This document shows, one piece after another, positions 16,179 through 60,731 of a stretch of 64,000 bases of DNA. The DNA lies in the NCBI GenBank assembly GCA_028287785.1, contig JAQBOZ010000027.1, positions 1 to 64,000 on the forward strand, written 5' to 3'. The position numbers and the translations under genes were made by a program. This stretch comes from Chlorobiota bacterium. Its GTDB lineage: Bacteria; Bacteroidota; Ignavibacteria; OLB7. The notes beneath the pieces are model-generated. The model ran no database searches and had not been told where the DNA came from. It saw nothing but the letters and a program-made list of their open reading frames with translations. Within the stretch, counting starts at the first letter, position 1, and each line of letters opens with the position of its first letter.

Positions 16179-16259
16179 ATCGTCACGCCCGTCTCCCGGC
16201 CATTGTCGTTTGATAAATGTTTGATAAACTTGTCGATTGATTGGCGATTCTCCGGCACA

Positions 16260-16285
16260 TTGGATCGTCATCCAACGGCTTTTTC
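16260..16285 (+). terminator. Candidate intrinsic terminator after the OmpA gene
   Basis: TTGGAT-CGTC-ATCCAA (16260-16275) forms a 6-bp stem with a 4-base loop, followed by CGGCTTTTTC. It lies 82 bases after the OmpA stop. If real, the T9SS-secreted protein that follows has its own promoter and must start after it, which supports the ATG at 16374. Confidence 0.5.
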
Positions 16286-16373
16286 TCCTTATCGAGTACT
16301 GTTCCGATCGTTGCGTTACGCATGTACCGATATCGTCAGTCGTGAGTGTGGCCGGAGATTCCTTCGGTGCGTC

Positions 16374-19300
16374 ATGCTCGCGTCCTTCTGCGTGCTGCTG
16401 TTTCACCTGGCTGGTGAGACCGTGCATGCACAGAATGGCTGGTGGGATCTACAGCGGGCGACCTCCGGCGGATACGACAAGAGCAGCCCCAGAATCGCGG
16501 TGGATCAGTGGGGGATAACCCATCTTGTATGGGCTTCCAATGATCCCAATCGCTCCGGCCTTCAGCTTTTCTACAGCACCGATGCCACCGGCCAGTTCAA
16601 CTCCCCGATTCAGGTAACCGATACCGGCAACGTCTACGATTCGGCGACGGTGACGTTCAAACCGTGGACGTTCCGGCTGGACCGTTTCGGCGGAGCGCAC
16701 GTCGGGTTTATCGCCAATTTCCGGAACCGCCTCCGCCTCTTCTATACATCGAACGCCAACCCGGAGCGCGCCTTCGGTCGCGCGCGGCAGCTTACCGATT
16801 CGGCCCTCCAGTACGGGATGGCCGTCGATTCGTTCGGCGTTGCCCATTTCGTCTGGGTGGAATACTATGGCGGCGCGGAGGCTCGCTTCGTCTACTGGAA
16901 CAGCAGGGAGCCCGGAACCCGGAAGGTGATTGCGACCCGTGAGTGCGTGAGCGGTGTCGGCGGGTGTTATATCGGCCTTCCCGAGGTCGAGATCGGGCGT
17001 GATGGAATCGTGGTAGCCTATCGGTCCGATTCCGGTTCGGTCTATCTTATCAGGCAGATCGATGGGGTCTTCAGGCCGATCGTCCAGGCATCTCCGACCC
17101 CCGGCTACGATGCCGCGCTGACGAAATCCGGCAAGGCCGATCTCCGCATGCGGATGTCGATCGATACGGTCGGCGCCATCCATATTCTCGCATCCCATTT
17201 CGATTCCCTCAATCGCCATAGCCTTTTCCATCTCTCCGATGCCGGCGGGTCGTTCGGATATCAGTTCCTTGCCACCGCGCTCGATTCACTCCCGAGCGAT
17301 TTCGATCTTGCCTACAACGGCGCCGATCGTCTCTCGGCCGTCTGGACCGCGTTTCGTCCCGTCCGGCCGTGGGATATCCCGCGCATCGGGTTCGCGGAGC
17401 TGCTGGATAATGGGCATGGCGTCTGGAAAAATTCAACGCGCATCAACGATCTCAACGACGAGATTCATGCCGACAGGACGATCTGGAAGACAGGATGCAG
17501 AATCGCCTCGGCGGGGGATCGGGTTGTCCTCTGCGGGATCGAGAAGATCGCAAGCGAGCGCGCCCAGCAGCAGATTTCGGTGATCGCGCGCATGTCGGTG
17601 CGTCCCGTTGTCCGGTATATCCTTCCGGATGCCGCCTCCGCCGGGATGAACGTCGTCGTGGAGACATACGCGCATCCCAGGGAGAAGGGCTCGTTCGGTG
17701 TCGATGGCATGCGTGGCGATGCCGCGCGCCTTGAGTGCGTGAACTCCGCCGATAACGATCGGCTGGTGATCGGCCCCTCGGTTGTGAGCTGGGAGGGGCG
17801 GCTGGTTTCCACCATGATATTCGTCAAGGCCGATGCGGCTTCCGGGCCGGTCCCGATGCGGCTTCATATAGGCGATGCGTTCAGCAATGCCGATACGTTC
17901 TTTATCGTTCAACCACAGCATATCGGTGGCGTTTCCGGCCATCTCTCCGGCGATGGCGCGCTCGGCTCCGGCGGCATCTACGGCCGTCGCTCGAAGCGCG
18001 GCGTCCTCGTCGTCGATTCGCTGATCCTGTCGAAGGGAACGTTTTCAGTCGATACCGCCGATACCGATCCACTTGCCCCCGGCAACCAGGGCTTCCTCCC
18101 GATAACGATACTCTCGCGCGGTCCCGTGCGGATCGATTCCGGCGCCACGCTCTCGGTGGCCGCCACGCACGATCTCTCCAGAGGAATCTATGGACAGGCC
18201 GGCCCCGGCGGTGGTGGCGGCGGGACGGGGGGAGAGCGCGGAATCGGATCGGGATATACGGGTGGGGCTTCCGCCGCGCGTATCGAGCAGGACTGGTTTA
18301 TGGGCGTTTCAACCGGCTCCGGCGGAACGCACAGCGGGGAATGGAATGGCGGCGGTTCTCTCTCCGGGACTCCGGGCGGAGCGTCCTATACCAACGCCAC
18401 GGGTGGCGGAGGGACGGGGCATCCGTTCGGCACATCGGGATCGTTCGGGGCGGTGACGCCGCGCGAGCCTGTGGAGGGGAATGCCGGTGGGTTCGGCGGT
18501 GGAACGGGGGGGGCGAAGGCTCCTTCGGTGACCGACTTCAGTTCGGGCGGCGGCGGCGGCGGTTTTGGGACGGTTGGTCGTCCCGGCGGCGCGTTCAAGG
18601 AGGATAACGGCGGCAGGCCGATCGGCACCATCGAGCTTGTCCCGATAGCGGGGGGCTCGGGCGGCGGCGGCGGCGGCTACAGCGCCAGCGGTTATGCCAG
18701 CGGCGGCGGCGGCGGCGGCGCGCTTGCCCTCTTCTCCTACAGCTCGATTCGCGTCGATGGACGCATCGATGCCAGCGGCGCGGACGGCATCAAGGCGCCA
18801 TCGGCGACCAACGGGAGCGGCGGTGGCGCCGGTTCCGGTGGCGGGCTGCTGATTGGAGCTCAGGGGCCGATCGCATTTGGATCGCACGGCACGCTCCGCG
18901 CGCTTGGCGGCAACGGTGGTCAGGGCTATACAAAGGATAATTCAGGCGGACGGAACGGCGGCGATGGCGGCAACGGCCGCATCCGTATCGATGGTCATCG
19001 CATAACCGCGGGGACGCTTCAGTCCGCGCCGGCACCCGAATATATGGGGCCGGGCACCGACGGCAGCGGCGCGGTGGTTGCGCGACCCGGTTCCATCCTT
19101 ACCGGATATGGAATGCCCGGTGGCAGGATCAGGATCTATACCCGCCCCGAGACGGGGAGCTGGTCGTACGCCGCCCCACACACGGTGACGGCGGATGCCA
19201 ACGGCGTCTGGCGCGACACGCTCGGGCAGGACGCGGCCTCCGGTCGGCTCTATGTGGTTGCCATGCAGCAGATCGGGACAAAGCCTTCGGGGAACCAGTA

Positions 19301-39994: not shown

Positions 39995-40213
39995 GCCGGT
40001 CATCGATGCCACATCTCCTCCGGCTGCATCGGGCCTGACGGCACGGCGGGCCGGGAGGCGATCAACGGAAGATTGATATTCCACCGGTGATTTCCCGTCA
40101 TCCGCCGCCGTCCCTGAGATAGGTCACCGCGCGCGACGGCGGGGTGATCCCCAATGGGCTCGTATCGTTCACGGGCGTGCCCGGCTCCCTCCCCATTTCT
40201 CGCGCGAGATATC

Positions 40214-43200
40214 ATGCGCCATCGTACACGCTGCCTCTGTCTGCTGCTTGTCATCGCCGCCGTCGGCTCCGCTCATGGTCAGAGGAGATCCGATTCGCTC
40301 CCCGAACCGCGCGCGACCGCGTTGAACTTTACCGAGAATCGGGGGCAGATCGTTGACTCCAGGGGAGCGCTCCGTCCTGATCTCCTCTATACCGCCGCTC
40401 TGGGCAACGTCCGCCTCTACTTCCGGCGCGACGGCCTCAGCTACGTCTTCAACCTCCATCACAACGATTCCGCGCGCGCGCATCGTCCACTGTCGTCATC
40501 GGAGCGCGCCGCGACAATCCCCGACACGGTTGAGCGCTACCGGATGGATATGACGCTTGTGGGCGCCAACCCCGTCGCGCGGATCGAGAGCGGCGAGCCC
40601 TCGGAGCTGACCAACAACTACTACCTCTCGCATTGTCCCGGCGGGATCACCGGCGTCCGGAATTTCCATCGCCTCACCTATCACGACATCTATCCGAACA
40701 TCGATCTGGCCTTCTACACCCGCGATGGCGCGCTGAAGTATGATTTCATCGTCCGTCCCGGCGGCGATCCGGCGATGATCCATCTCCGGTACGATGGCGC
40801 GGAGGGCATGAAGAAGGCGGGGGAGAGGATCGTGGTGAGCACCCCGCTCGGCGCGGTGGAGGAGGGGGCGCCGCTGGCATACCAGTCGAACGGGAAGGAT
40901 ATGCCGATGAGCGATGGTACAGCGAGTGGCAACGTCGGCTGCCGGATGCTGCTCGACCGAAGCGATATCCGGTTCGCGGTGGATCGCTACGATGGCGCGC
41001 GGACGCTGGTGATCGACCCGAGGCTTCTGTGGGCGACGTACGTCGGGGGGAATGGGGAGGATATCGTCTCCAGCTATCTGAACGGTCGGCTCGCGGTGGA
41101 CGGGCAGAAGAATATCTATATGAACGGCACCACCTCCAGCACGGATTTTCCGGTGGTGAGCGGCGTACAATCCACCCTGAACGGGCAATCGGATGAGTTC
41201 GTCATAAAATTCTCCCCCGGCGGAACGGAGATCTGGGGGACATACCTCGGCGGGTCGCTTAATGAGGAGCATGGCGCGATATCCGTCGATCTCAACGGCA
41301 ATGTGGCGGTGACCGGAGCCACATTCAGCAGCGATTTCCCCCTGGCCGGCCCCACGTTTCAATCGCGATTGGTGGGCCCCTCCGATATCTTTATCGCGAC
41401 GTTCACGCCGGGGGGGCTGCTGAAATGGTCCACCTACTATGGGGGGAGCGACTATGATTACGGGATAGGGGTACGGATCGATCCAACCGGAAACGTGATT
41501 GTCGCGGGGGCCGCGGAGAGCAGTGATTTTCCGCTGACAAGGCCCGGCCCCGGTGGGGTTGCCGTTATAAAGTTCAATGCCGGCGGCTCGCGCCTGTGGG
41601 CATATGGTTACGAGGCGGAGACCGTCTTCGCCGTGGCGACCGATGCGGTGGGAAATATCGTCCTGACGGGCACCATCAATACTGCCGGAACCTCGATAGT
41701 CACGGCGGGGGCCCAGCAGCCGACATACGCCGGTAATGGGGATGCCTATGTGCTGAAACTCGATCCTCTCGGAACGCCGATCTGGGGAACATATTTCGGC
41801 GGCGCTCAGAACGAGGTGGGGGGGGATATCGCCGTCGATCAGAGCAACGGAGGCATCGTCTTCACGGGCTATACCTCAAGCCCGGATTTCCCCGTCACCC
41901 CCGGAGCGGTGCAGTCGCGTCTGCATGGCATCGCCGACGCGTTTGTCGTCAGGCTGAGCAGCGCCGGCCTGCTTGTCTGGTCCACCTACCTTGGCGGCGC
42001 CACCCCCGTATCACTCGGTGCGATCAATTCCGGCGAGGCGGTTTGTCTTTCTCCCTGTGGCGATGTCTTCCTGACGGGCTATACCGCATGTTCCGATTTT
42101 CCCGTTACGACCGACGCCACGCAACCCAGGAACGGCGGCGGGGATGATGGGTTCCTGGTGAAGTTCGACCCACGCGGGAGGCTCGTCTGGGCCACATACT
42201 GCGGCGGTGAGGGAGCCGAACGCCCCCGTGGCATCGCGGTCGATTCCCTGGAGGGAACCTCCATTGCCGGGGGAACATTCAGCCGGCGCTTCCCGACAAC
42301 GCCCGGCTCCTTCAGGCCGAACTACAATGGCGGCACCGACGATGCGTTTCTCGCGAAGTTCTTTCTCGAGTTCGAGGTGCGGATCGCCGCGGACGGCCCT
42401 CTGACGATCTGCGAGGGAAAGAGCGTCACGCTCTCGGCTCCGGCCGGCTATCTCCGCTACAACTGGTCCACCAACGAGCATACTCAGAGCATCAGGGCCA
42501 AGGCCGCCGGCACCTACTGGTTTAACGCGCTGGATCAGGATGGCTGCCCGGGATTATCGGATACCGTCACCGTGAAGATCAACAAACGGCCGGCGCTGAC
42601 TATCAAAAGCAGCGGCCCGCTGGCCTTCTGCGCCGGCGACAGCGTCCTCCTCTCGATAGCCGCGGCCGGGATCGTCTCCTACCGCTGGCTCCCCCCGGCG
42701 GTCAGCACAAGTGCCCGCGTCTGGGTTGGCAGCACCGGTGATTACTCCGTTCAGGTGGTCGATGCCAATGGCTGTACCTGGGATGTGGGCCCCGTTCACG
42801 TGCAGGTCAACCCCGTTCCCCCCGTTCCCGTCTTCTCCTTCGGCGATACCCTCCGGGTCTGCGCCGACAGCAGCGCCGTGCTCGATGTCGGCACCGGAAA
42901 CGGCTACAGGAAGTATCGATGGTTCGATGGTGGCGGCCGTCTGATCGACAGCGCCAGGATGATCCGCGTCACGCAGGGAGGCAACTACTCGGTCATCGTC
43001 TATGATGCGCTCGGCTGCTTCGTCGGCAGAGCTGTCACGGTGGCGTACTATCCGCCGGTGAAGCCCGTGCTTCAGGTCCACGGCCCCCTCTCGTTCTGCG
43101 AAGGGGACAGCGTGCTGCTGAATGTGGGAGGCGGGACGTTCGTCGATTATCGGTGGCCCGGTGCGCGGGTTACGGCCGGCATCACGGTACGCGCGTCCGG

Positions 43201-45127
43201 CCGTTATTTCGCCAGGGTGATCGATGCCAACGGCTGTCCCGGCGTCACCGATACGGTTGCCGTGACGGTCCATCCCGTCCCGGTCGCGACGATCGGCGGC
43301 GCGCTCTTCGTCTGCACCGACGCGGTGGCGCACTACAGCGTCCCGCATCGCGACAGCGCCCGCTATCACTGGACATGCGCCGGCAACGGCGCCATTGTGG
43401 GCGTCGAGGACAGCAGCGGCGTTACCGTCCACTGGGGGGGTGCAGGGCAGGGGATGCTCACGGTTTCGGTGATCGATACGCTCTCCGGCTGTTCGGCGAC
43501 ATCATCGGCCAGCATCAGCATCGGCACCACGCTGAAGCCGGATATCACCGGGCCGAGGAGCTTCTGCGCGGGGGATACGATCGAGCTGGACGCCGGCAGC
43601 GGCTATGAACGTTATCAGTGGATCGGGGGGGAGCAAACCCAGAAGATCCGCGTGCACAGCGCCGGGCGTTACGGGGTGATCGTGCGCGATATCGGCGGCT
43701 GCACCGGCGCCTCCGATACCATCACGATCATCGCGACGGCCCCGCGCGCGCCGCTGGTCAGCGGCCCGGCCAAGGTCTGCATCAACTCGACGGCGACCTA
43801 TGCGGTGGCCGAGATCACGGGCGATCGCTATGAGTGGAGCGTGAGCGGCGGCGCGATCGTCAACGGCGCCGGCAGCCATCAGATCGATGTCCAGTGGGGG
43901 GGCGGCCCGGCCGGCCTGGTCAACCTTACCGAGCGTTCGGGGGAAGGGAGTTGCGCCGGGATTGCGCCGGCGCTGCCGGTAGCCATCGGCACGGCGCTGG
44001 AGCCGGTGATTACGGCCTCGGGACCGCTGGCGCTCTGTCCGGGGGATAGCGTGGACCTGGATGCCGGCGCCGGTTACGCCAGCTATGGGTGGTCGAGCGG
44101 GGAGTTGTCACGGGTGATTCGCGTGGGGGATAGCGGGACCTATCACGTCACCGTCAGCGACGCGGGCGGATGTTCCGGTTCGTCGGTGGATCTCCGTGTG
44201 GATCATCATCGGGCGCCCATCGTCTCCATCATGCCCGCCGGCCCGGTGGAGTTGATCGAAGGAGACAGCGTGGATCTGGACGCCGGTGCCGGCCACGCCC
44301 TGTACAACTGGGGCGGCGGCCGGACGGCGCGCCATCTCATCGTCAAAAACGGTGGGACGTACGCGGTGGCGGTGATCGACAGCGGGGGGTGTCGTGGGGG
44401 AGACTCGGTGCGGGTGGTGCTTGTTCCGCGTGGTGGGTATCAGGGGCATGCGCTGGTGGAGCTGGGGTCGGCCACGGCGGCGCCGGGGGAGAGAGTTCTG
44501 CTGCCGATCATCCTCGACTCGTCCGATCATCTGCCGGTGAGCGCGGCGATGCGGGCCTATCAGGCGCGCCTGCGGTTCAACGGGAGGCTGCTGCTGCCGG
44601 CCGGCGCCACGCCGATCGGCGTGATGGATGGAGCCGATCGCGTGCTTACCGTTGATGGGACGATCCCGGCCGGCTTCAGCGGCGGGCGGTTGAGGGATCT
44701 GGAATTTATCGCGGCGCTGGGGGATACGCTCGTCACGCCGTTGCGTCTGGAGCGGTTTACCATCGGCCGTGGGGACAGCCTTGTGGTGGCGCGGACGGTC
44801 GATGGGGTGTTTACGCTGCGGGGCGTGTGCATGTCGGGGGGGAATCGGCTGGTTGTCAGCGATGGCGCGCTGGTGCTGAAGCCGGTACGTCCGAACCCGG
44901 TGAGCGATATCGGCGAGCTGCAGTACGAGGTGGTGGAGGACGGGCGGACGCGGCTGTCGGTGAGCGATGCGCTGGGGCGTCAGGTGCTGACGCTGGTGGA
45001 TGGGGATGTCGCGGCAGGGGCATACAGCGTGACGTTCGGGACAGCGGGGTTGTCGTCGGGGATCTATTTCGCGACGCTCGGCACGCGCACCGCGCGGCTC
45101 TGCGTTGCGTTCCAGATCACCCATTGA
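40214..45127 (+). CDS. Giant T9SS-secreted protein with SBBP propeller, Ig-like repeats and cohesin-like module
   Basis: A 1637-residue protein. A signal peptide (CLCLLLVIAAVGSAHGQ) leads a DUF7948-like region (FTENRGQIVDSRG, then HDIYPNIDLAFY; about 30-270). SBBP beta-propeller repeats follow (about 275-720; recurrent WGTYLGG and DFPVT). Nine Ig-like/PKD-like modules come next (about 720-1415), many with the pattern CxGDSVxLxxG..Y..Y.W and a late GGC. A cohesin-like domain (about 1420-1550) and a type-A T9SS tail (VRPNPVSDIGELQYEV, then LSSGIYFATL) close it. It should be exported by T9SS and shown on the surface or released; adhesion or polymer binding is likely. ATG 40214 puts the signal peptide at the start. 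Confidence 0.9.
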   Translation: MRHRTRCLCLLLVIAAVGSAHGQRRSDSLPEPRATALNFTENRGQIVDSRGALRPDLLYTAALGNVRLYFRRDGLSYVFNLHHNDSARAHRPLSSSERAATIPDTVERYRMDMTLVGANPVARIESGEPSELTNNYYLSHCPGGITGVRNFHRLTYHDIYPNIDLAFYTRDGALKYDFIVRPGGDPAMIHLRYDGAEGMKKAGERIVVSTPLGAVEEGAPLAYQSNGKDMPMSDGTASGNVGCRMLLDRSDIRFAVDRYDGARTLVIDPRLLWATYVGGNGEDIVSSYLNGRLAVDGQKNIYMNGTTSSTDFPVVSGVQSTLNGQSDEFVIKFSPGGTEIWGTYLGGSLNEEHGAISVDLNGNVAVTGATFSSDFPLAGPTFQSRLVGPSDIFIATFTPGGLLKWSTYYGGSDYDYGIGVRIDPTGNVIVAGAAESSDFPLTRPGPGGVAVIKFNAGGSRLWAYGYEAETVFAVATDAVGNIVLTGTINTAGTSIVTAGAQQPTYAGNGDAYVLKLDPLGTPIWGTYFGGAQNEVGGDIAVDQSNGGIVFTGYTSSPDFPVTPGAVQSRLHGIADAFVVRLSSAGLLVWSTYLGGATPVSLGAINSGEAVCLSPCGDVFLTGYTACSDFPVTTDATQPRNGGGDDGFLVKFDPRGRLVWATYCGGEGAERPRGIAVDSLEGTSIAGGTFSRRFPTTPGSFRPNYNGGTDDAFLAKFFLEFEVRIAADGPLTICEGKSVTLSAPAGYLRYNWSTNEHTQSIRAKAAGTYWFNALDQDGCPGLSDTVTVKINKRPALTIKSSGPLAFCAGDSVLLSIAAAGIVSYRWLPPAVSTSARVWVGSTGDYSVQVVDANGCTWDVGPVHVQVNPVPPVPVFSFGDTLRVCADSSAVLDVGTGNGYRKYRWFDGGGRLIDSARMIRVTQGGNYSVIVYDALGCFVGRAVTVAYYPPVKPVLQVHGPLSFCEGDSVLLNVGGGTFVDYRWPGARVTAGITVRASGRYFARVIDANGCPGVTDTVAVTVHPVPVATIGGALFVCTDAVAHYSVPHRDSARYHWTCAGNGAIVGVEDSSGVTVHWGGAGQGMLTVSVIDTLSGCSATSSASISIGTTLKPDITGPRSFCAGDTIELDAGSGYERYQWIGGEQTQKIRVHSAGRYGVIVRDIGGCTGASDTITIIATAPRAPLVSGPAKVCINSTATYAVAEITGDRYEWSVSGGAIVNGAGSHQIDVQWGGGPAGLVNLTERSGEGSCAGIAPALPVAIGTALEPVITASGPLALCPGDSVDLDAGAGYASYGWSSGELSRVIRVGDSGTYHVTVSDAGGCSGSSVDLRVDHHRAPIVSIMPAGPVELIEGDSVDLDAGAGHALYNWGGGRTARHLIVKNGGTYAVAVIDSGGCRGGDSVRVVLVPRGGYQGHALVELGSATAAPGERVLLPIILDSSDHLPVSAAMRAYQARLRFNGRLLLPAGATPIGVMDGADRVLTVDGTIPAGFSGGRLRDLEFIAALGDTLVTPLRLERFTIGRGDSLVVARTVDGVFTLRGVCMSGGNRLVVSDGALVLKPVRPNPVSDIGELQYEVVEDGRTRLSVSDALGRQVLTLVDGDVAAGAYSVTFGTAGLSSGIYFATLGTRTARLCVAFQITH

Positions 45128-45366: not shown

Positions 45367-47688
45367 ATGAACCTTCGTCGCATTTCCTATTCCGGATTTC
45401 TCCTCCTCCTTGGGGGGCTTGGGCTGGCGGCCTGCCAGCCGACCCGCAATTTCACCACCTACTATAATCTCTTCTATAATATGGAGCGGATTATGGACGA
45501 GGTGGAGGATGAGGTGCTCTATATCCGCGAGCAGAAGCAGCCCGAGCCGGTCTTCTATATCCCGTACGATGATCTGGATCGCAGCGGCGCCAAGTACTAC
45601 GCCCATCTCGAACGGCGGTCGATGACCAACGATGAGATGCGCGCCAACAAGGTGAAGCTGGACTCGATCCTCATCAAGGGATCGAAGCTGATGGCCCGCC
45701 ATTCCAAGAGCGATTATTTCCCCGACGCTGTCTTTTATATCGGCAAGGCCTATTTCTACCTTCGGGAGTGGTTCCAGTCGCAGAAGAAGTGCGAGGAGAT
45801 GATTACGGGATTTCCCGACAGCCGGTTCTACCCTGATGCCCATCTGGTGCTCTCGATGGACCTCATGGAGCAGGGGAAGATCGCCGAGGCGGAGCGGATG
45901 CTCTCGCGGACCATCGATATCGGCTGGGGGCGGAAGCGACGGGATATCCTCATCGAGGCGTTCCGGCTCAATGCCGATCTTCAGCTCGGCGAGGGGAATG
46001 TTGCGGAGGCGGTCAGGCCGTACGAGCGTGCGCTTATCCTCAGCTCCGACGATGAGGACAGGGCACGCTGGCGCTACGAGACCGGGATGATCTACTATCG
46101 CCAGGGGGATTTCAGGAAGGCGCTGGAGGAGTTCGCGAAGGTCGATGATCTCTCCCCCGATATCCTGACGCAGTTCCAGACCGGGATGCAGCGGGCGGCC
46201 GCGTATCGCGCCCTTGGTCGGAATGAGGACGCCACCAAACAGCTTGCCCAGTTGAGAAAGAACGGGAATTTCGAGGGATGGTACGGGATGGTGGATCTGG
46301 AAAGCCTGAACCTGGCGGCGGCGCAGTCCGGCGGCACCGAGGCGACCGACGAACAGCTCCAGCAGATCGATTCGATCTCCCCCGGAAAAGCGTATTCCGC
46401 CTATGCCATTTATGAACGTGCTGTCCGATCCTATCGGCAGGGTGACTACAATGCCGCCCTCGCCAGCTTCCAGAAAGTGCAGGCCGCCAATGTGCCGTTT
46501 CAGCGCCGCGCCGCGCGCTACTCCAACCTTCTCGCCAGGTACTTCGAGCAGACCGCCAAGGCGAGGGCGCTGACGAACGGGTATTCGCCTGAATCCTATC
46601 CGGATTCATCCAAGAGTGTTGTCTCGGACGCGTATTACAGCACGGCCCGCGTGTTCGTATCGCTCGATCTCCCCGATTCCGCACAGCATTACTACGATCT
46701 TTCGGGGCAGTGGTCCAGACGTGGGAGCGTGGAGGCGGCCCGATATTACTATGTGCAGGCGATGAGCGATCTGGATTCCGGCCGGAACGCGCAGTCGGAT
46801 TCCCTCCTCCAGATCCTGGTGGATAACTACAGCCTCACCGATTACGGCGCGGATGCACGAAAGCGGCTTCACTATACCGAGTTCGCGAAGGTGGATACGG
46901 CGGAGGATCTCTATCTCTCCGGCAGGAGCTTTATGAACGTGGGGGATAATGACCGGGCGCTGACGCAGTTGCACAAGGTGATTGCCGATTATCCCGCCTC
47001 CCCGTACGCGCCGCAGGCCTACTATGCCATCGGCCTGATCTACGAGCAGAAGCTTGGCCGTCCCGACAGCGCCTTCAGCTATTACGCGCGCATCGTCGAT
47101 CTCTATCCGAAAAGTGAGCAGGCCAGCACCGTCCGCCCGGTGATCGATGCCGTCAATATGGACAAGGTGCGGCGGGAAAGGGAGAAGGCCCCGGCGGATA
47201 CGGGAACGGCAAAAGGGGCCGCGGCGTTCCCCGCCAACGTGCCGGTGAAGAAGCAGGAGGAGCTGGTGCCGCTTGGCGCGGGGGGCGGGGGGCTTCAGGG
47301 GCCCGTTGGAAACCCCTCACCGAGTGCCGGAAAGCCGGGGAGCCTGAACCCGTCCGGAGCGGGGAATGTGCGGCTTGGAACGCCACCCGCCGGATCGGTT
47401 CCGGCCGGCGGCGTCCCGCCGAAGAATGCTCAGGAGGGAAACGGGGGAGGCGACGTAAAGCCGCCCCAGGGAAATGCCCAGGCCGGGAGATCGCCGGAAA
47501 CCGGCAGGACGCAGAACAATGCGCCGAAGGAGGGCTCGGCTCCGGGGAGCAAGCCGCAGGATTCGACATCATCGAATGCCAGGCCCTCCGGCGGAACGAC
47601 GAAGGATGTCCCGCCGAAAAAGCCCGCGCCGAGCGGAACGCCCGCGGTGGCACCCAAGCCGAAAACCCCGCCCGGAAAGAAGAAATAG
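45367..47688 (+). CDS. TPR lipoprotein, PorW/SprE-like
   Basis: A 773-residue lipoprotein. The signal peptide ends in a lipobox GLAAC, lipidated Cys23, followed by TRNFTTYYNLFYN, which recalls the start of PorW/SprE, a TPR lipoprotein of T9SS and gliding. From about 95 to 600 it consists of TPR helices (for example YFPDAVFYIGKAYFYLREW, then YDLSGQWSRRGSVEAARYYY). The last 170 residues are Pro/Gly/Ser-rich. In Bacteroidota PorW links outer-membrane parts of the T9SS; here that role fits the two T9SS cargos in the window but rests on partial resemblance. A Tol-like or BamD-like TPR lipoprotein is the alternative. Confidence 0.7.
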   Translation: MNLRRISYSGFLLLLGGLGLAACQPTRNFTTYYNLFYNMERIMDEVEDEVLYIREQKQPEPVFYIPYDDLDRSGAKYYAHLERRSMTNDEMRANKVKLDSILIKGSKLMARHSKSDYFPDAVFYIGKAYFYLREWFQSQKKCEEMITGFPDSRFYPDAHLVLSMDLMEQGKIAEAERMLSRTIDIGWGRKRRDILIEAFRLNADLQLGEGNVAEAVRPYERALILSSDDEDRARWRYETGMIYYRQGDFRKALEEFAKVDDLSPDILTQFQTGMQRAAAYRALGRNEDATKQLAQLRKNGNFEGWYGMVDLESLNLAAAQSGGTEATDEQLQQIDSISPGKAYSAYAIYERAVRSYRQGDYNAALASFQKVQAANVPFQRRAARYSNLLARYFEQTAKARALTNGYSPESYPDSSKSVVSDAYYSTARVFVSLDLPDSAQHYYDLSGQWSRRGSVEAARYYYVQAMSDLDSGRNAQSDSLLQILVDNYSLTDYGADARKRLHYTEFAKVDTAEDLYLSGRSFMNVGDNDRALTQLHKVIADYPASPYAPQAYYAIGLIYEQKLGRPDSAFSYYARIVDLYPKSEQASTVRPVIDAVNMDKVRREREKAPADTGTAKGAAAFPANVPVKKQEELVPLGAGGGGLQGPVGNPSPSAGKPGSLNPSGAGNVRLGTPPAGSVPAGGVPPKNAQEGNGGGDVKPPQGNAQAGRSPETGRTQNNAPKEGSAPGSKPQDSTSSNARPSGGTTKDVPPKKPAPSGTPAVAPKPKTPPGKKK

Positions 47689-52743: not shown

Positions 52744-54663
52744 ATGTCTAAAGGCGGAGCCGGCAAGGTCTACTTCGTTCTATACCTTGCGGTCATTCTC
52801 GAACTGTTGATCATCTTCATCGAGCGCGATGAGGCTGAGGAAGGGCTGCGCAAGCAGCAACAGCAGGCGATTCAGATCGTTCAGACGATCCTTTCGCAGT
52901 TGCAGACCGGCAGTGGCGTTCAGGCCATTACCGCAAGTCCGAAGGATAACATCGTTATCAACGATAAGGACCCGAGTGCCAACAAGCGGAACTACGATAT
53001 CACCGTCGCCGTCGGCGATCCCAAGGTGATCTATCCGGTTCCCGGGCATCCGGGTGATTCCGTGCATGGCGACGACGTTGCCAAGCTGGAGTATATCGTC
53101 TCCCACACCCCGAACGACAAGCTGACGGAGGATGTTCTGGGGGATGACACCACCGACATCGTCAACGGCAACGTCCTGTTCAAGGCGGCCCTAGGAACAA
53201 CACTGGACGGATATAAAACTCCTCGTCAGGAGTATGGAGGGGGCATCCCCGCCGATCCGGGCGAGCCATATTTCTCGCTGAACGAGGATAAGACCCGTCT
53301 CCAGGTCGAAAAGGGACGGCGCGTAAAGGTCTTCAGCGTCAACTTCAAGCCGAACCAGGGTCCGGGTTGGTATCGCCTCCGTTTCTACTCGGAGACGAAC
53401 CGGATTCTTGGCGTCAACGGCGAGGTGAAGGATGACGATACGATCCGCATCGGCAATATCAAGCTGACGGTGAAGCAGCTCCATCAGGTGCAGAAGGTGC
53501 TTGCCAAGGAGAAGGGGAAACCCGGTGGAGCTAACAACGACCAGGTCGAGAAATATATCGAGACCCTCCTGTCGCCGGACGCATACAAGAACATGAAGGA
53601 GAACCAGAGCAGCACATCCTTCAACGTTCACGTGGTCCGTCCGGAGGCCCCGCCTCCCTCAAAGCCGTATGTGACGATCGCCGCGCGCGACACCGTCTAC
53701 TGGTACGACGTTGCCCCGTTCTCGGTCCAGGTCAAAGCCGGCCCGAAGGAGGCTTCGAGGAATCTGGCCGGTGGAATCCTGAAGACGGTCGACGAAGCGC
53801 AGAACCTGTACAGCGCCGATATCGAGAAGCCGGAGGTGACCCCGACCGGCACGAAGATCTCCGTTACCGTGACAAATGCGGGGGCGGAGCCGGCCAAGGA
53901 TGAGAAGATTCTGATGGTGGACAAGCCGACGCTTCGGGCGGCTGATCCCGGCGCCAGGGTCCCGACCAATGGGACCGCCAAGTGGCGGGGCCTTTCCGCC
54001 ACCGTGGGGCAGGCGTATGACCCTTCGAGCGAGTGGTTGAACACCTACATCCCGTCGAACGATTATCAGACGAAGGTCTGGATTCGCGGCAAGGAAGTGC
54101 TCAACGTTTCGGGGGTGAAGATTGCCAAGAGCCCGAACCTGGTGATTCCGGACGGCACCAAGGCCGAGGATATCCTGACGAGAGTCTACTGGAAGCCGGG
54201 GGGGACATCCGATACCAACAAGTGGAAGCTCCTGCTGAGCAATCAGGAGAATCAGGGAGCTGTTATCCCGCTCGAAAAGCGGAAGATGGAAGTCGGTTTC
54301 CCCAAGCCGATCATGGATCCGGGGAGCCAGGGCTATGATGTCCAGTTCCAGATCAAGCCGACGCATCTCGTGTACGAGTCGGGCGATATCATGATCAGCC
54401 AGCCGATCGGCGCCCAGCAGTTCCCTGTTTCGGTGACTGCATCGTGCGAGGACTGCTCCAAGTACGGGCTTGATGTCAGCATCGAACAGGGCTCGGACGA
54501 CAAGACCTGGAAGCTGTTCATGCGCGCCAAGAGCTGGGCTCAGGTCCAGAAGGCGATGAAGGAGCTGAACGGCAAGCGGTTCGATATCGGCCTCAACCTC
54601 CAGGGGAAGGGGAAGCCTTCCACCGAGGGGATGTCGATCACGACAACCGTCTCCGCTCGCTAA
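52744..54663 (+). CDS. Unknown inner-membrane protein with a large periplasmic beta-rich region
   Basis: A 639-residue protein I cannot assign to a family. A single membrane helix at about 9-26 (VYFVLYLAVILELLIIFI) is followed by a short coiled-coil-like RDEAEEGLRKQQQQAIQIVQ and then some 580 mainly beta residues in repeated-looking blocks (for example RYNY-type strands around 340 and 520-600). The topology, one N-terminal helix and a long periplasmic arm, is like GldM/PorM, the T9SS motor arm, but the helical first domain of GldM is missing and no diagnostic motif is seen, so that is only a possibility. A Cys pair (CEDC) is at about 571-574. ATG 52744 is preceded by AGAAAGGAAAAC. Two hairpins follow the stop. 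Confidence 0.78.
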   Translation: MSKGGAGKVYFVLYLAVILELLIIFIERDEAEEGLRKQQQQAIQIVQTILSQLQTGSGVQAITASPKDNIVINDKDPSANKRNYDITVAVGDPKVIYPVPGHPGDSVHGDDVAKLEYIVSHTPNDKLTEDVLGDDTTDIVNGNVLFKAALGTTLDGYKTPRQEYGGGIPADPGEPYFSLNEDKTRLQVEKGRRVKVFSVNFKPNQGPGWYRLRFYSETNRILGVNGEVKDDDTIRIGNIKLTVKQLHQVQKVLAKEKGKPGGANNDQVEKYIETLLSPDAYKNMKENQSSTSFNVHVVRPEAPPPSKPYVTIAARDTVYWYDVAPFSVQVKAGPKEASRNLAGGILKTVDEAQNLYSADIEKPEVTPTGTKISVTVTNAGAEPAKDEKILMVDKPTLRAADPGARVPTNGTAKWRGLSATVGQAYDPSSEWLNTYIPSNDYQTKVWIRGKEVLNVSGVKIAKSPNLVIPDGTKAEDILTRVYWKPGGTSDTNKWKLLLSNQENQGAVIPLEKRKMEVGFPKPIMDPGSQGYDVQFQIKPTHLVYESGDIMISQPIGAQQFPVSVTASCEDCSKYGLDVSIEQGSDDKTWKLFMRAKSWAQVQKAMKELNGKRFDIGLNLQGKGKPSTEGMSITTTVSAR

Positions 54664-54675
54664 CGCAGTCGAACT

Positions 54676-54718
54676 GTATATTCGCAACCCGCCCGGCGGA
54701 TACGTCGGGCGGGGTTGT
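54676..54718 (+). repeat. Stem-loop repeat unit A (terminator-like)
   Basis: GTATATTCGC leads into CAACCCGCCCG (54685-54695), which pairs with CGGGCGGGGTTG (54706-54717) with one bulged G. It lies 22 bases after the membrane-protein stop, so it may end that transcript. It has no U-tract. Unit B at 54874 shares its first 11 bases and stem sequence. Confidence 0.55.
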
Positions 54719-54873
54719 GTAAGGCCCATCAGGGATTATCAGAGCTTTTGATGGCCGCGGTCCGGCGCTTTGTGGGGCGATAACGGTATCCGATGCCCCT
54801 TCACGCCGGGAACTTTCCGGTCGGATCAGGGTCGGTATTGATAACTCGATCGAAAAGTTGATGCTCCTGCATC

Positions 54874-54918
54874 GTATATTCGCAGCCCCCCGCCAGCGTA
54901 CTGTTCCGGCGGGTTGCA
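54874..54918 (+). repeat. Stem-loop repeat unit B
   Basis: GTATATTCGC at 54874-54883 is followed by GCAGCCCCCCGCC (54882-54894), which pairs with GGCGGGTTGC (54908-54917) leaving a CCC bulge and one G-U pair. The sequence and position mirror unit A 198 bases earlier, suggesting a duplication or a small dispersed element. Confidence 0.5.
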
Positions 54919-55034
54919 GATCCCACGCATGTAACAAAGCGCTTCGGCGGAACGGCGATCTTTCCTAAGTTGTTCCCCGTTTGCGCCTCGTTTGCTGAAG
55001 CATATCCTACACATATAATTCACGGAACAACCTC

Positions 55035-56852
55035 ATGAGGATACCTATCGCCCGGCAGGTGACATATGCAGCGTTCGTCGCTCTCGCAGGCGTCGCGTTC
55101 ATCGTCACCACACCCCTCCGTGCTCAGGAACGAGACACTGTTCAGAAGAAATTGCGGCTCAGCCGCTCTCTGGCCGCTCTCAGTCGTTCGCTCGACGATA
55201 TCAAATGGTCGTCGGTTGGGATTTATCGCGTCGAGGAGGATCTGGGCAAGCGCCTGCTGGAGCCGCTGAAGCGCGGTTCCGCCAAGGACAGCGCCGATCT
55301 CAGCGTCGCCATGGCGCCGCTGATTCCCGAGGGATGGAGTGGTGATGCCTATAACGGCGTTCTCCGCATTGCCCGCAGCCCGCGGCCGGCGCGCGATCTC
55401 GCGAAGTTCAAGGAGGCTCTGGCCTCGCTCTTCGGCATTGCGGCTGATGACATGGAAGATCAGGAAGTCGAGCCGGTTCAGCAGATCGCCGTGCGGATCG
55501 TGAACCAGTTGAACAGCAACCCGAAGGTGTACTACCTCGTTGCCACCCGCGACAAGGCCAACCCCGGCCTGATTGCCCTGCTGGGCGGCGATGAAAAGGA
55601 TGGCGACTTTATCCTGAAGGGACAGCCGCTGGCCGGCATCGATGTCTACAACTATCTTCAGACCGCGGACTCCACGCTGTATGGCGATCTCAAGACCGCC
55701 GTCTCGGACCGGAGCACCAGTCTTAATAACAGAATGAACGACCTCCGCAACCTGGCGGATATCGTTATCGTGCCAACATCGCGCGTTCGCGCCTCCTATC
55801 TCGACGAGGATCGGTTCCCGCATGTGCTGCTGAGCATCAGCAACGGCCGGCCGCTCCGCAGCCAGGATTCCGCCCGTCTCGAAGCTGCAAACATCCTTAC
55901 TGGCGATCCCACGCTTCCGCAGCTGGGCTCCGCCACCCCGGCAAGCGTCGAGTATCCGTATGAGGTGACCGTCGGCACGGACATCCTTGCATCCTTCATG
56001 GCGTACAAGGTGACCAACGATACGCTGCCGGTTCCGGAGGCTGACTGGGGCGTTGAGCTTCGGAACAACTTCGACGAGATCAACTATCCCTCCATCTGGG
56101 GCGGTCGTCTGACGTTGAACGCCATTCTTGAGAACATCAAGGTTGGCGCGGTGCTTCCGCAGATTCGTTTTGGCGGGAACACCCTCGATTCCAGCGGCAT
56201 CGGCTCCAACCGGCAGAAGATCATCGGCGGTTACGGCATTGCCCTGTCGGGCGATTTCGCGGCGCCGATCCTCAACAACTCCGGCCTGTTCAATTTCTAC
56301 GGCAGCTACACCTTCAGCGAGGCGAACACCGAGAAGATCAAGCTGTACACGCCTCCCGCGGATGTGAACCTGAACGAGCAGGGATACCTTATCCGCTATG
56401 CCTTCCAGGGGTATTACTCCTTCGGATTCTATGCGGATGCCGATGCGAAGCATCTCTTCCGTCTGAAGATCGGCGGCACCGTCTACGGCGTGGATGCGTT
56501 CACCCGTCAGATCGACACCTCCGCCACGATCGATACCTCGGGGGGGGCCTCGGCTCCCACGCATCTGGTCAAGGGGGAGAACTTCAATCATGGTGGCGTC
56601 TCCGGCAAGATCGAGTATATGAAGACCGGTTCGACGATTCCGTGGGGCCTTGGAGTTCAGTACTTCGATCAGTCGATTCTCTCGAACGTCTGGATTCAGT
56701 TCGCTATCAACCGTCGGCTCGACCTGAAGATCGAAGGGAAGTACTTCGCTCCTCTGAGTCCGTCTGATCGCCTTCTCACGCATCCATGGGAGAATCCGAA
56801 CCTGATCGTTCCATCGGTGAGCGTCAAATATCACTTCGGACCGCAGCCGTAA
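55035..56852 (+). CDS. Exported beta-barrel protein, unknown function (1)
   Basis: A 605-residue exported protein that I do not recognise. A signal peptide (YAAFVALAGVAFIVTTPLRAQ) precedes a helical to mixed N-terminal part (about 30-300) with conserved-looking IVPTSRVRASYLDEDRFPHV. From about 320 on, alternating Gly/aromatic strands (YGIALSGDFAAPIL, FYGSYTFSEAN, YYSFGFYADADAKHLFRLKI) end in VPSVSVKYHFGPQP, as expected for an outer-membrane barrel (C-terminal aromatic near the end). It is followed by hairpins at 56862-56945 and a second barrel gene. Confidence 0.75.
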   Translation: MRIPIARQVTYAAFVALAGVAFIVTTPLRAQERDTVQKKLRLSRSLAALSRSLDDIKWSSVGIYRVEEDLGKRLLEPLKRGSAKDSADLSVAMAPLIPEGWSGDAYNGVLRIARSPRPARDLAKFKEALASLFGIAADDMEDQEVEPVQQIAVRIVNQLNSNPKVYYLVATRDKANPGLIALLGGDEKDGDFILKGQPLAGIDVYNYLQTADSTLYGDLKTAVSDRSTSLNNRMNDLRNLADIVIVPTSRVRASYLDEDRFPHVLLSISNGRPLRSQDSARLEAANILTGDPTLPQLGSATPASVEYPYEVTVGTDILASFMAYKVTNDTLPVPEADWGVELRNNFDEINYPSIWGGRLTLNAILENIKVGAVLPQIRFGGNTLDSSGIGSNRQKIIGGYGIALSGDFAAPILNNSGLFNFYGSYTFSEANTEKIKLYTPPADVNLNEQGYLIRYAFQGYYSFGFYADADAKHLFRLKIGGTVYGVDAFTRQIDTSATIDTSGGASAPTHLVKGENFNHGGVSGKIEYMKTGSTIPWGLGVQYFDQSILSNVWIQFAINRRLDLKIEGKYFAPLSPSDRLLTHPWENPNLIVPSVSVKYHFGPQP

Positions 56853-56861
56853 GGCCACGGC

Positions 56862-56945
56862 TACCGGGTTGTGCGAAAGCCCGGTATAGTGCGGCTTCCG
56901 CCGCGAGTTGCCCCACTACTACGCTGCCATGCGGCGGTGGGGCAA
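56862..56945. terminator. Three consecutive hairpins between the two barrel genes
   Basis: TACCGGGTT/AGCCCGGTA (56862-56886; 9 bp with one U-G), GCGGC-TTCC-GCCGC (56891-56904) and TTGCCCCAC/GTGGGGCAA (56908-56945; 9-bp perfect stem, 20-base loop). None has a U-tract. They may end the first barrel transcript or protect its 3' end; the third could also be in the leader of the next gene. Confidence 0.5.
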
Positions 56946-56999
56946 TGAGAAATAAACGTTCATACCGATAGCAAACCCTATAGCAAGGACAGAAGTAGA

Positions 57000-58469
57000 A
57001 TGAGCAAGTTCGTGCTGATCGCCCTCGCGGTCGTATTGGTCTCACTCGGCACTCATAGCACTCCGGCATCTGCCCAGGGTGGAGCACCCACGCTCCGTGA
57101 GATTCAAGCTATGATCGACAGCGCAAAGACGCTCGATCCGGAAATCGAACGCTATCTTCCCCGATGGCGGATTCAGGAGGCGGATCTCAAAATCAAGATC
57201 GCCGCGATTTTCAGCAGCGATGGCCTTCCGATCAAGGAAACCGATTCGATGATCGTGACGGCCACCTTTCCCCGTCCCAACGAAGCGCAGGAGCTTCTGA
57301 CGCTTCGCGCGGGCGCCAGCGGCGTTGTCAGCGGGAAGGATGCCATCCGGCGGTATGTTGGAGAGGCCCTTTACCGGCAGATCCTGGCGCGTGCGTACGC
57401 GCATACCGTGATCGAGCCGGCATCGCCGCTGACCGAGTCGCAGAAGGATCGTATCGGCAGTGTCTTCTATCCGTCGGTTGCGCGGCAGTTCGTCGCAGTC
57501 TCGGCATTCCGCCAGGCGGTGCAGCTTGGAACCACGGGAGCGCGACTGGAGCATCTTATCGGCGACGATGAGATCGGGTATCACTTCTGGTCGTCGGGAC
57601 AGGGGAAGGCCGCCATCAGCTATCCGATCATCCGGCTCGACAACCCCGATCTTCGGGCCAAGGGAGTTCCGGATATCCTTAGCATCATGCTTGGCGCGGC
57701 CTATCGTCTGAAGTTCGGAACGCCGAGCGACAACTTCCTGGGTGGGGTGATCACCCCAAGGCTGCTGAATGGGACCATCGGCGCCAAGGCTCTGACCCAT
57801 GTTGAATATCGCCTGCCGCAGGTGAACGATATCGGCTTCTCGCTCCACGCGGAAGTTCCGTTCGGCAAGATGCAGCAGGGAGAAGAAGTGGATCTGAGTG
57901 AGGCTGGTGTTGTGAATGCGCCCGGCATCTATGCCTTTGTGAAGGATAAGCGCCCGACCGTCGATACTGTTCTGAGCGCCTATTTCCTTCGGACGGTGGC
58001 GCAGGGAACGGTCTTCTGGGAGACGTGGCTGAATGATTACGAGCACTTCTTCCGCATCAGCCTGGGAGCGTCGTATCAGGAGGTGGAATGGTCGGCTCTG
58101 GCGAAGTTGAGCGCAACCACCAACCAGTACGAGCATGTTCATCTCGGGAAGGATGGGGCGATTCTGGGGACCGATAACAAGGCTGCGATTCCCAACGGAG
58201 TGGAAAATCTCCGGCTCATCCATCCGACCGAGCTTCAGGACTGGATCTACGCCAAGGTGGAATATCTGAACCAGTCCGGTTTCCCGTTCGGCATGAGCGC
58301 GCAGCTCGCCAATCGTAATCTTCTGATCTCCGGCTTTATCCCGGTGATCCCGAACTGGCTCTTTCTTGAGGCAAAGTATTCCACGCCGATTCTGCGCGAT
58401 CAGCCGGCTCCGTGGGAGTCGCGGTCGTTCTTTATGATCTCTCCGGTTCTCCGGATCAAGATCGACTAA
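57000..58469 (+). CDS. Exported beta-barrel protein, unknown function (2)
   Basis: A 489-residue exported protein without a recognised family. The signal peptide is short (FVLIALAVVLVSLGTHSTPASAQ). Residues 25-190 are mixed helix/strand (IVTATFPRPNEAQELLTL, then ARAYAHTVIEP). Residues about 200-489 are amphipathic strands (FGTPSDNFLGGVITPRLL, VEYRLPQVNDIGFSLHAEVP, GFPFGMSAQLANRNLLI) ending in SPVLRIKID, consistent with an outer-membrane barrel. ATG 57000 has AGGA ten bases upstream. It lies after the related-looking barrel gene 1, and the pair share the layout of soluble N-domain plus C-terminal barrel. Confidence 0.75.
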   Translation: MSKFVLIALAVVLVSLGTHSTPASAQGGAPTLREIQAMIDSAKTLDPEIERYLPRWRIQEADLKIKIAAIFSSDGLPIKETDSMIVTATFPRPNEAQELLTLRAGASGVVSGKDAIRRYVGEALYRQILARAYAHTVIEPASPLTESQKDRIGSVFYPSVARQFVAVSAFRQAVQLGTTGARLEHLIGDDEIGYHFWSSGQGKAAISYPIIRLDNPDLRAKGVPDILSIMLGAAYRLKFGTPSDNFLGGVITPRLLNGTIGAKALTHVEYRLPQVNDIGFSLHAEVPFGKMQQGEEVDLSEAGVVNAPGIYAFVKDKRPTVDTVLSAYFLRTVAQGTVFWETWLNDYEHFFRISLGASYQEVEWSALAKLSATTNQYEHVHLGKDGAILGTDNKAAIPNGVENLRLIHPTELQDWIYAKVEYLNQSGFPFGMSAQLANRNLLISGFIPVIPNWLFLEAKYSTPILRDQPAPWESRSFFMISPVLRIKID

Positions 58470-58502
58470 CCATGTGGCTGGGCCGGCGTTATATCATCGA
58501 TA

Positions 58503-58597
58503 TGAGCCGGCTCAACTGAAACATATCCCGAAGTTATGGGTCTCACTGTTTGTAGCCGGATCGTATCATTCCTCTGGCGCGGCATTGAGACCCTTTT
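58503..58597 (+). terminator. Palindrome and long-loop hairpin with T-run after barrel gene 2
   Basis: TGAGCCGGCTCA (58503-58514) is a perfect 12-bp palindrome. GGGTCTCA (58538-58545) and TGAGACCC (58586-58593) form an 8-bp stem with a 40-base loop, followed by TTTT. The T-run favours a terminator or the 3' end of a small RNA. No gene lies between 58470 and 58707. Confidence 0.45.
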
Positions 58598-58707
58598 GCG
58601 TGACACCATTTGTAGTGTGTCGATTGAACAGGAATGCTGATGTTCGCGCCGTAGTCTAGCGTCTTGAATTCGCAGTTGCCCCTGTTTTCGTTATCGAGCA
58701 TCGTTTC

Positions 58708-60057
58708 ATGATCGGTCCTTTTACCGTATTTCTTCGCCGAACGATCCCTTTCGTCGCGCTCATGGCAGCGCTTTGGATTGGTACGGCCTTGCTGTGCGGC
58801 GCGCAGCCGGTCGGCGGAACCAACCCGGCGCAGAATTCCGTCACATCGCTCTCCCTGAAGGACACCGCCCTTCACGTCTCCGTCCGCAACATCGACATCA
58901 CCCGCTTTCCGGTGATCAGCATCGTCTTCGACGCGTTCGATTCGCAGGGGATGTCGGTTGTGGGGATCGACAAGAAGGATATCCTCATCTCGGAAAACGG
59001 CGTCCAGCAGAATATTCTCACGCTCTCCTCCATCACGCGATCCAACCGGGTTCCGATCGATTTTGTGTTCATCATCGATCAGACCGGCAGCATGGGGAGC
59101 AAGATCGAGGCGGTGAAGCAGAATATCGATGACTTCACGACACGGCTGGCGGCCAAGGGAATCGATTATCGTCTGGGGCTGGTGGTGTTCGACGACAACG
59201 TGGCGGAGCGTCACTGGCTGACGGAGGATCTGAATGAGTTCAAGGGATGGGTCGATGCGCTGGTCGCGCACGGCGGCGGCGATATCAAGGAGAACGCGCT
59301 GGAGGCGCTCCGGGCGGCCACCGGCATGAACTTCCGGATGAGCGCCAACCGCTACGCCATCCTTATCACCGATGCACCGTTTCATCAGTACGGCGAGCAT
59401 GGATACGGTCGCACGATGTACACCACCAGGACCATGATCAACACCCTGGTCCATTACGATATCAGGACGTTCTGCATCACGGCGCCGGAGGTGCTGGGGT
59501 ACAAGCAGATCGCCGATGGAACCGATGGACAGGTGTTCGATATCAACCAGCCGTTCGCGGAGATCCTCAACAAGTTCGTGACGACGGTAACATCGCTGTA
59601 TACGGCCACCTACAAAACCGGCACCGATCTGATTCCCGACTCGATCAAGGTGGAGTTGAAGATCCCGGGGGCGAACATCGTGGTGAAGAAGAACTTCTCG
59701 GTGCTGGAGATCGGCAGGAAGCTGGTGGTGGATAATATCCAGTTCGGCACCAACCAGTATACGATCGAGCATGGCTCGCAGTCCAGCCTTGACTACCTCG
59801 TCCGCCTTCTCAAGGCGCGGACCAGCCTGAAGCTGAGAATCGAGGGATTTACCGATAACGTGGGGGATGCGTCGCGCAATATGAAGCTGTCGTTCGCCCG
59901 CGCCGACGCCGTGAAGGATTATATGGTCCAGCGGGGCATCCACCCGGATCGTCTCTTTACCATCGGCTACGGCGCCACGCGCCCGACAGCCACCAACGAC
60001 AGCGATGAGGGACGGCGTCTGAACAGGCGGACCGAGTTCATCATCATGCAGAAGTAG
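58708..60057 (+). CDS. VWA-domain plus OmpA-domain envelope protein
   Basis: A 449-residue exported protein. After a signal sequence (RRTIPFVALMAALWIGTALL, up to about 32) comes a short beta domain (about 50-115), then a von Willebrand A domain (about 118-315) with the MIDAS motif D124-x-T-G-S128 (DQTGSMGS), then an OmpA peptidoglycan-binding domain (about 340-449; GFTDNVGDASRNMKLSFARA, EGRRLNRRTEF). The combination links a metal-ion adhesion or assembly domain to the cell wall. It could be a scaffold for the neighbouring barrel proteins. The preceding 238 bases carry hairpins and no gene. Confidence 0.88.
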   Translation: MIGPFTVFLRRTIPFVALMAALWIGTALLCGAQPVGGTNPAQNSVTSLSLKDTALHVSVRNIDITRFPVISIVFDAFDSQGMSVVGIDKKDILISENGVQQNILTLSSITRSNRVPIDFVFIIDQTGSMGSKIEAVKQNIDDFTTRLAAKGIDYRLGLVVFDDNVAERHWLTEDLNEFKGWVDALVAHGGGDIKENALEALRAATGMNFRMSANRYAILITDAPFHQYGEHGYGRTMYTTRTMINTLVHYDIRTFCITAPEVLGYKQIADGTDGQVFDINQPFAEILNKFVTTVTSLYTATYKTGTDLIPDSIKVELKIPGANIVVKKNFSVLEIGRKLVVDNIQFGTNQYTIEHGSQSSLDYLVRLLKARTSLKLRIEGFTDNVGDASRNMKLSFARADAVKDYMVQRGIHPDRLFTIGYGATRPTATNDSDEGRRLNRRTEFIIMQK

Positions 60058-60236
60058 TCGCCGCCGGTCGCGGTTGCCCGATTGCGTCGCCGCGTATCAT
60101 CCCATCATTTCCCTTCCGTCAATCTCCGGCCTCAACATTGGTCTGATTTCTGCATTGTAGCAACATTCAGAAAAACAGGATGATCCGTTTCGCGTTCCGA
60201 TCGGATCGTCATCCATATTCAAGGACAATTCACAGG

Positions 60237-60731
60237 ATGCCGATAATGAAGTCAGCAACGCAGATTCTTATGACCGCCACCGTCGCCTGCGGGCTCTGCC
60301 TGATGGCGTGCGGCCCGAAAGAGGGGACGCAGACGCATATCGATGTTTCGACCCCAGGCAATTCCACCGATACGGTGGTGCAGCAGAACACGACGGTGGT
60401 GCAGCCGGTGCAGACCGATACGGTGGTACAGCAGAAGACGGTGGTGCAGCAGAAGACGGATACCGTGGTGCAGCACCGCGTGGATACCGTCGTGAAGAAC
60501 CCGACCGCGCCAGTCAGCAGCGTGACGGCGCAGGAGAAGGCCCGCATCGACAGCTGGCTCAGCGCTCATGCGGATACCCTCAATCGCTACGGCGATTCCA
60601 AGGCGACCATGTACGCCGGCGGAACTCCGCTGTTCAACGAGGCGACCGGCAAGACGATGGATCGGTATGATTACATCGTGATGAAACATCCGGATCGTCC
60701 GTGGCTGGTGACGTCAGTGCCGAGACGGTAG
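60237..60731 (+). CDS. Small repeat-bearing lipoprotein
   Basis: A 164-residue lipoprotein. The lipobox is CLMAC with Cys25. Residues about 45-85 form a tandem repeat built on TDTVVQQ, TVVQQK and VDTVVKN. The C-terminal half (TAQEKARIDSWLSAHADTLN, then MKHPDRPWLVTSV) looks folded. ATG 60237 (MPIMKSATQ) is used; ATG 60246 is nearly as good. No function is evident; position after the VWA-OmpA gene places it in the envelope block. It converges with the NAD+ synthetase gene. Confidence 0.78.
   Translation: MPIMKSATQILMTATVACGLCLMACGPKEGTQTHIDVSTPGNSTDTVVQQNTTVVQPVQTDTVVQQKTVVQQKTDTVVQHRVDTVVKNPTAPVSSVTAQEKARIDSWLSAHADTLNRYGDSKATMYAGGTPLFNEATGKTMDRYDYIVMKHPDRPWLVTSVPRR
60368..60501 (+). repeat. 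In-gene tandem repeat coding TDTVVQQ-like units
   Basis: Five to six imperfect copies of about 17-21 bases (core ACGGTGGTGCAGCAG) lie in the lipoprotein gene. The units give repeated Val-Val-Gln-Gln peptides and can vary in number by slippage. Confidence 0.7.

Follow-up and report, generated by a model that had tools for sequence, protein, structure and literature searches.

A conserved four-gene envelope unit as a candidate part of a type 9 secretion motor in Kapaibacterium-type bacteria

Four neighboring genes (genes 1-4, Table 1) probably encode part of a proton-driven, envelope-spanning motor that powers the type 9 secretion system (T9SS) in place of GldL and GldM (GldLM) in Kapaibacterium-type bacteria and some of their relatives. 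They lie in a window of 64,000 nucleotides (G000:C13:1-64000), the whole stretch of DNA analyzed here, which belongs to a 4.75 Mb assembly that is 95% complete. The motor reading draws on which genes are present and in what order, on their co-occurrence, on the linkage to PorU, on topology and folds as predicted, and on the lack of canonical GldL and GldM matches. The real unit comprises genes 1-4 (52744-60057) and a GldL-like partner encoded elsewhere, outside the window.

Table 1. Positions of the genes under study, of intergenic hairpins and of secretion-related genes (window coordinates unless a contig or locus is named)
Feature	Position	Strand	Length	Description
Gene 1	52744-54663	+	639 aa	Single-TM inner-membrane protein with tandem periplasmic Ig-like beta domains; candidate GldM-like inner motor subunit or shaft
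Gene 2	55035-56852	+	605 aa	Signal peptide, soluble N-domain of ~300 aa, C-terminal outer-membrane barrel
Gene 3	57000-58469	+	489 aa	Signal peptide, N-domain of ~130 aa, FadL-like barrel (153-489)
Gene 4	58708-60057	+	449 aa	VWA domain, then C-terminal OmpA peptidoglycan-binding domain
Gene 5	60180-60731	+	183 aa	Repeat lipoprotein; outside the unit
RNA hairpin, genes 1/2	54664-54760			z -3.5; without T-run
RNA hairpin, genes 2/3	56853-56960			z -3.3; without T-run
Putative large cargo	16203-22034			Sorting-domain match just under the cut-off
Putative large cargo	40154-45127			C-terminal sorting-domain match (TIGR04183), 23.7 bits, cut-off 23
PorW/SprE-like TPR lipoprotein	45367-47688			NF052312, E 4e-26, under its cut-off
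Second GldL-like/GldM-like pair	C13 ~306836-309189 (L162 7837-10190)			Same contig, outside the window; genes overlap by 4 bp; inner subunit without TM Glu
SprA	G000:C2:297503-303949			995 bits

A four-gene unit conserved among relatives

The initial annotation had described five consecutive plus-strand genes, and open reading frames were found exactly at the positions given. Its view that proteins 1, 2, 3 and 5 belong to no recognized family holds, as none has a convincing match in Pfam or NCBIfam, and its assignment of protein 4 to the VWA-OmpA type is borne out by an OmpA match (E 1e-21). Genes 1-3 and their profiles also gave nothing convincing against Pfam, NCBIfam and PDB sequences, and clear matches to unrelated families did not appear in these searches. 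The proposed topology was borne out in prediction for gene 1 (one TM helix, then beta structure) and gene 3 (N-domain followed by a barrel), and gene 2 shares the barrel with gene 3. The lipoprotein encoded by gene 5 has to be removed from this picture: the gene is absent after gene 4 in a genome of the same genus (L032), and no such gene occurs among the flank clusters common to at least five loci.

Conservation of the gene order, suggested earlier as a check, was examined in relatives, the named ones being MAGs of Candidatus Kapaibacterium, Chlorobiota and Ignavibacteria. A contig scan with the gene 1 alignment yielded 80 loci, in which genes 1-4 were then called with four protein profiles. 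The complete order g1-g2-g3-g4 is present at 57 loci (gene 3 is split in one) and g1-g2-g3 at 7 more. Where more than 5.5 kb of sequence follows gene 1, genes 2 and 3 are present in 60 of 64 loci; in these testable loci, which stem from many families, the order g1-g2-g3 is far above chance. In the four exceptions (L071, L073, L076, L102), a GldL-like gene immediately precedes the homologue of gene 1. Median gaps between successive genes of the unit are 34, 29 and 86 bp, and genes 1-2-3-4 stay together in several families despite differing flanking genes. Among the genomes of the class, the gene 1 search was positive in 24 of 61. The gene 1 family is also present on two public MAG contigs assigned to Armatimonadetes and Bradyrhizobiaceae (L065 and L104), so these assignments are probably wrong; a weak gene 1 match in the genome under study (G000:C2:259934, E 0.26) was disregarded.

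The structured hairpins noted between the first three genes do exist in this genome, and an Rfam search with both gave no match. Since most relatives have gaps of only ~30 bp, leaving no room for them, the hairpins are not a conserved part of the unit.

Comparison of their profiles shows the barrels of genes 2 and 3 to be homologous to each other (hhalign P 98.6, E 7e-16). For gene 3, the predicted structure (pLDDT 83.2) shows the N-domain followed by the barrel, with FadL-family TbuX as the best VIA match (Z 14.5); a T9SS translocon chain, 6h3i_F, reaches Z 12.8, tied with many barrels. We take this chain to be PorV. No sequence match between gene 3 and PDB chains was found, and hhalign comparisons of genes 2 and 3 with GldK, and of both genes and their f9 and f12 counterparts with GldN and PorP, gave nothing. 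Gene 4 follows gene 3 in 57 loci, and its OmpA domain makes it the putative peptidoglycan anchor.

The inner-membrane pair and its relation to GldL and GldM

The predicted structure of gene 1 (pLDDT 83.5) consists of a single 51-residue helix (5-55) and subsequent beta domains. Only one TM segment is predicted (9-27), followed by an ERD motif (27-29) and the large periplasmic region. The TM helix is nearly invariant, with E20 invariant in 50 sequences; beyond the family of gene 1 itself, identity in the nearest families is 60-68% over the first 75-84 residues and much lower over the remainder. The Foldseek/VIA matches of gene 1 are generic tandem Ig-domain proteins. GldM/PorM is not among the matches listed, an absence there that is not counted against kinship, and a search with the GldM model TIGR03517 gave no match. 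The GldM D2-D4-like fold named as support by the initial annotation was not obtained; the prediction shows an Ig-like chain that lacks a helical D1 bundle such as that of GldM.

A candidate partner came to light in family f2, where a multi-TM protein is encoded just upstream of a gene 1-type gene; on visual inspection, the two helices at its end look like those of GldL. Profiles of this terminal hairpin (A6) and of the gene 1 N-terminus (A7) were searched in the 61 genomes of the class. Each was found in 27, and the 27 genomes are identical; the genomes are mostly MAGs and kinship inflates such counts of co-occurrence, which nonetheless involve eight families. Gene 3 is present in 25 of these 27 genomes and in none of the 34 others. 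The remaining two (G012 and G016) harbor an operon of a GldL-like gene, a short TM protein, a periplasmic protein and proteins akin to gene 2 (P 91 in hhalign) and, weakly, to gene 3 (P 55). The second helix of the hairpin carries an intramembrane Glu (E57) that is invariant in all 19 rows of A6, accompanied by an invariant Arg. Most first-type GldL-like proteins have four predicted TM helices. A Pfam scan of five GldL-like proteins (E 1) showed no MotA_ExbB match, and the best PDB match of the profile, complex I subunit 4L (E 0.22), was taken as chance.

The two genes are linked in several families. In f2, f9, f12 and a further clade, the gene 1-type gene has a GldL-like gene as its immediate upstream neighbor, the arrangement L-M-g2-g3 occurs twice in G025, and the G033 chromosome encodes a seven-gene block on one strand, L2-M2-L1-M1-barrel-barrel-VWA-OmpA, with a similar block in G042. 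Many genomes have two motor pairs; an equivalent of E20 is missing from the second-type inner subunits. The genome under study has such a second pair (Table 1), and no first GldL-like gene was found in its assembly. In this lineage that gene is unlinked to gene 1, and sister genomes keep it beside an SSB gene. That SSB gene is matched at only 33% in this assembly, which points to an assembly gap as the likely reason for the missing gene.

The invariant Glu residues of gene 1 and of its partner bear on the reading of the unit as a passive envelope scaffold, or a tether between outer membrane and peptidoglycan, that transduces no energy. A VWA-OmpA protein, an Ig-like rod and barrels would suit such a role. 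However, by far the most conserved part of gene 1 is the TM helix with its buried Glu, which a tether would not need, and in the same genomes the partner hairpin carries a second Glu that is likewise invariant. A passive structure is therefore regarded as very improbable.

Descent from GldL and GldM is a separate matter. Alignments (hhalign) of the GldL-like protein with GldL and of the gene 1 TM segment with that of GldM gave E values of ~0.05 to 0.27. In 60 column-shuffled controls, 11 and 10, respectively, were as good (GldL-like against GldL, score 14.4: 11/60). As the alignments lie within this null, the claim of homology to GldL/GldM was dropped. Gene 1 and its partner might still be GldM and GldL themselves, too far diverged by descent for the models to recognize and unchanged in the proposed function: GldL-like and GldL proteins align in register (GAA in the first helix, Glu in the second), the gene order is the same, and the beta region of gene 1 aligns with GldM at E 1e-3 and P 22 (hhalign). 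Against this stand, besides the shuffled null, the lack of a helical D1, the four rather than two helices predicted for most first-type GldL-like proteins, and the absence of the PRQKMI start of GldM from gene 1-type proteins. Such descent is conceivable, on balance somewhat doubtful. It is judged rather unlikely that a proton-driven rotary motor with two parts arose independently of GldLM, took over the T9SS across the lineage and couples to the outer membrane via the FadL-like barrel pair in place of the GldK/GldN ring.

Type 9 secretion without canonical GldL and GldM

According to reviews, the T9SS belongs to the FCB group as a whole and has GldLM for its motor (PMC11205867). SprA is strongly present in 60 of the 61 genomes of the class, including the one studied here, whereas canonical GldM (TIGR03517) and canonical GldL (TIGR03513, above cut-off) were each found in none of the 61; the absence of the motor is judged from these two models. 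A class with SprA and no detectable GldL/GldM contrasts with the motor described in the reviews (PMC11205867). The models performed as expected on positive controls: GldM of L197 scores 608 bits, and the GldL model was positive in 14 of 61 genomes of a phylum sample, where the GldM gene lies beside GldL and GldK, GldM and GldN are found alongside in most cases. No genome of the phylum sample harbors both GldL types. In six genomes from three families (G009, G019, G028, G037, G046, G055), the next gene after the first-type GldL-like gene encodes a homologue of the PorU/C25 sortase. The matches to PorU are strong in the peptidase region and lie below the curated whole-protein cut-offs. The window itself had been said to hold two T9SS cargos and a PorW-like protein: one cargo exceeds its cut-off, and the other cargo and the PorW-like lipoprotein score below theirs.

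The earlier idea of a divergent T9SS or gliding module finds good support in SprA without canonical GldL/GldM, the exact co-occurrence of the GldL-like protein, PorU adjacency and strict synteny. It stands on gene content, linkage and gene order, while the GldM D2-D4-like fold was not obtained. In the proposed machine, the GldL-like protein would form a ring in the inner membrane, and its invariant hairpin Glu, which lies in the last TM helix, would carry the proton. The helix of gene 1 would serve as the axle within this ring, and its tandem beta domains would transmit movement through the periplasm. At the outer membrane, the barrels of genes 2 and 3 would take up the movement via their N-domains and hand it to the SprA translocon, with gene 4 tying the assembly to peptidoglycan. 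The ring and axle arrangement, the use of protons, the transfer of force and the contact to SprA are inferred from GldLM.

The same genes could instead form a separate proton-driven trans-envelope machine, serving in surface motility, in the movement of adhesins or in transport at the outer membrane in the manner of TonB/ExbBD or Tol-Pal, with the T9SS powered by something as yet unrecognized. Such a machine would agree with 33 of the 61 genomes of the class that have SprA and neither canonical GldLM nor the module, a number that likewise weighs against a secretion motor (the 34th module-less genome, which is incomplete, shows none of these). The 34 module-less genomes comprise families f3, f4, f5, f7, f8, most of f9, f11, f13, f16 and f17. 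The T9SS can therefore exist without the module, and these 33 genomes may harbor a further unrecognized motor. Location fits a separate machine as well, for the cluster does not adjoin SprA and the SprA neighborhoods, checked as a possible motor site, contain no module genes. Where two motor pairs are present, at least one may serve another purpose, and the FadL-like barrel fold is that of a transporter. Yet the GldL-like gene directly precedes PorU in six genomes, the module tracks genomes with SprA and without GldLM, and the L-M-outer-membrane-protein arrangement resembles a T9SS operon. A machine apart from secretion is accordingly considered unlikely, and a motor for the T9SS remains the preferred reading, despite homology to GldL/GldM falling within the null, the generic Ig matches of gene 1 in place of a GldM-like fold, and the first GldL-like gene missing from this assembly.

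Beside SprA itself, a gene for the T9SS response regulator PorX (717 bits) was observed at L244 4826-6388, and response-regulator genes with a similar start lie beside SprA in several other genomes of the class.

Comparison with known systems

No description of the module was found in the literature searched, a search whose coverage leaves out most subscription journals. The module is a named, testable candidate for the powering of the T9SS in such bacteria. With it, one more lineage of ion-driven motors made of two parts would stand next to MotAB, ExbBD and GldLM, and it could reveal how such a motor connects with the outer membrane when there is no GldK/GldN ring. Annotators could use models made from the alignments to recognize the motor in many genomes where it carries no label.

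Compared with the MotAB, ExbBD and TolQR stators, most GldL-like proteins have four predicted TM helices with a ~100-aa segment between the pairs, and MotA likewise has a segment of ~100 aa between its TM pairs. The TM segment of MotB and ExbD carries a carboxylate, as does that of the gene 1 inner subunit. In contrast to these stators, the scanned proteins have no MotA_ExbB or MotB/ExbD Pfam match, and the peptidoglycan domain resides on a separate protein, gene 4. Gene 3 shares its barrel fold with PorV and the FadL family and adds an N-terminal soluble domain of ~130 aa; as noted above, gene 3 has no sequence match among PDB chains. PorE and other OmpA-type T9SS anchors share the peptidoglycan-binding domain of gene 4, which has a VWA domain in front; the multidomain architecture of PorE differs from that of gene 4.

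The closest likeness is to GldL/GldM (PorL/PorM). In GldLM, GldM spans the periplasm and E49 of GldL is essential (PMC8986121, PMC5790014, PMC9389320); GldM has a helical D1 domain (PMC5790014), and E49 is the proton residue in Flavobacterium (PMC8986121). The module differs in that it has no family-model match, demonstrable homology or helical D1, in the extra TM pair of most GldL-like proteins, and in the invariant Glu of the first-type inner helix. Both systems have the two-gene L-M order, and both occur alongside SprA and PorU. In each, the inner subunit has one TM helix and continues in a long beta-structured part in the periplasm, and the partner has a hairpin whose intramembrane Glu is invariant and a cytoplasmic tail rich in charge. 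Downstream, the module continues with two barrels and the VWA-OmpA protein, whereas canonical operons continue with GldN.
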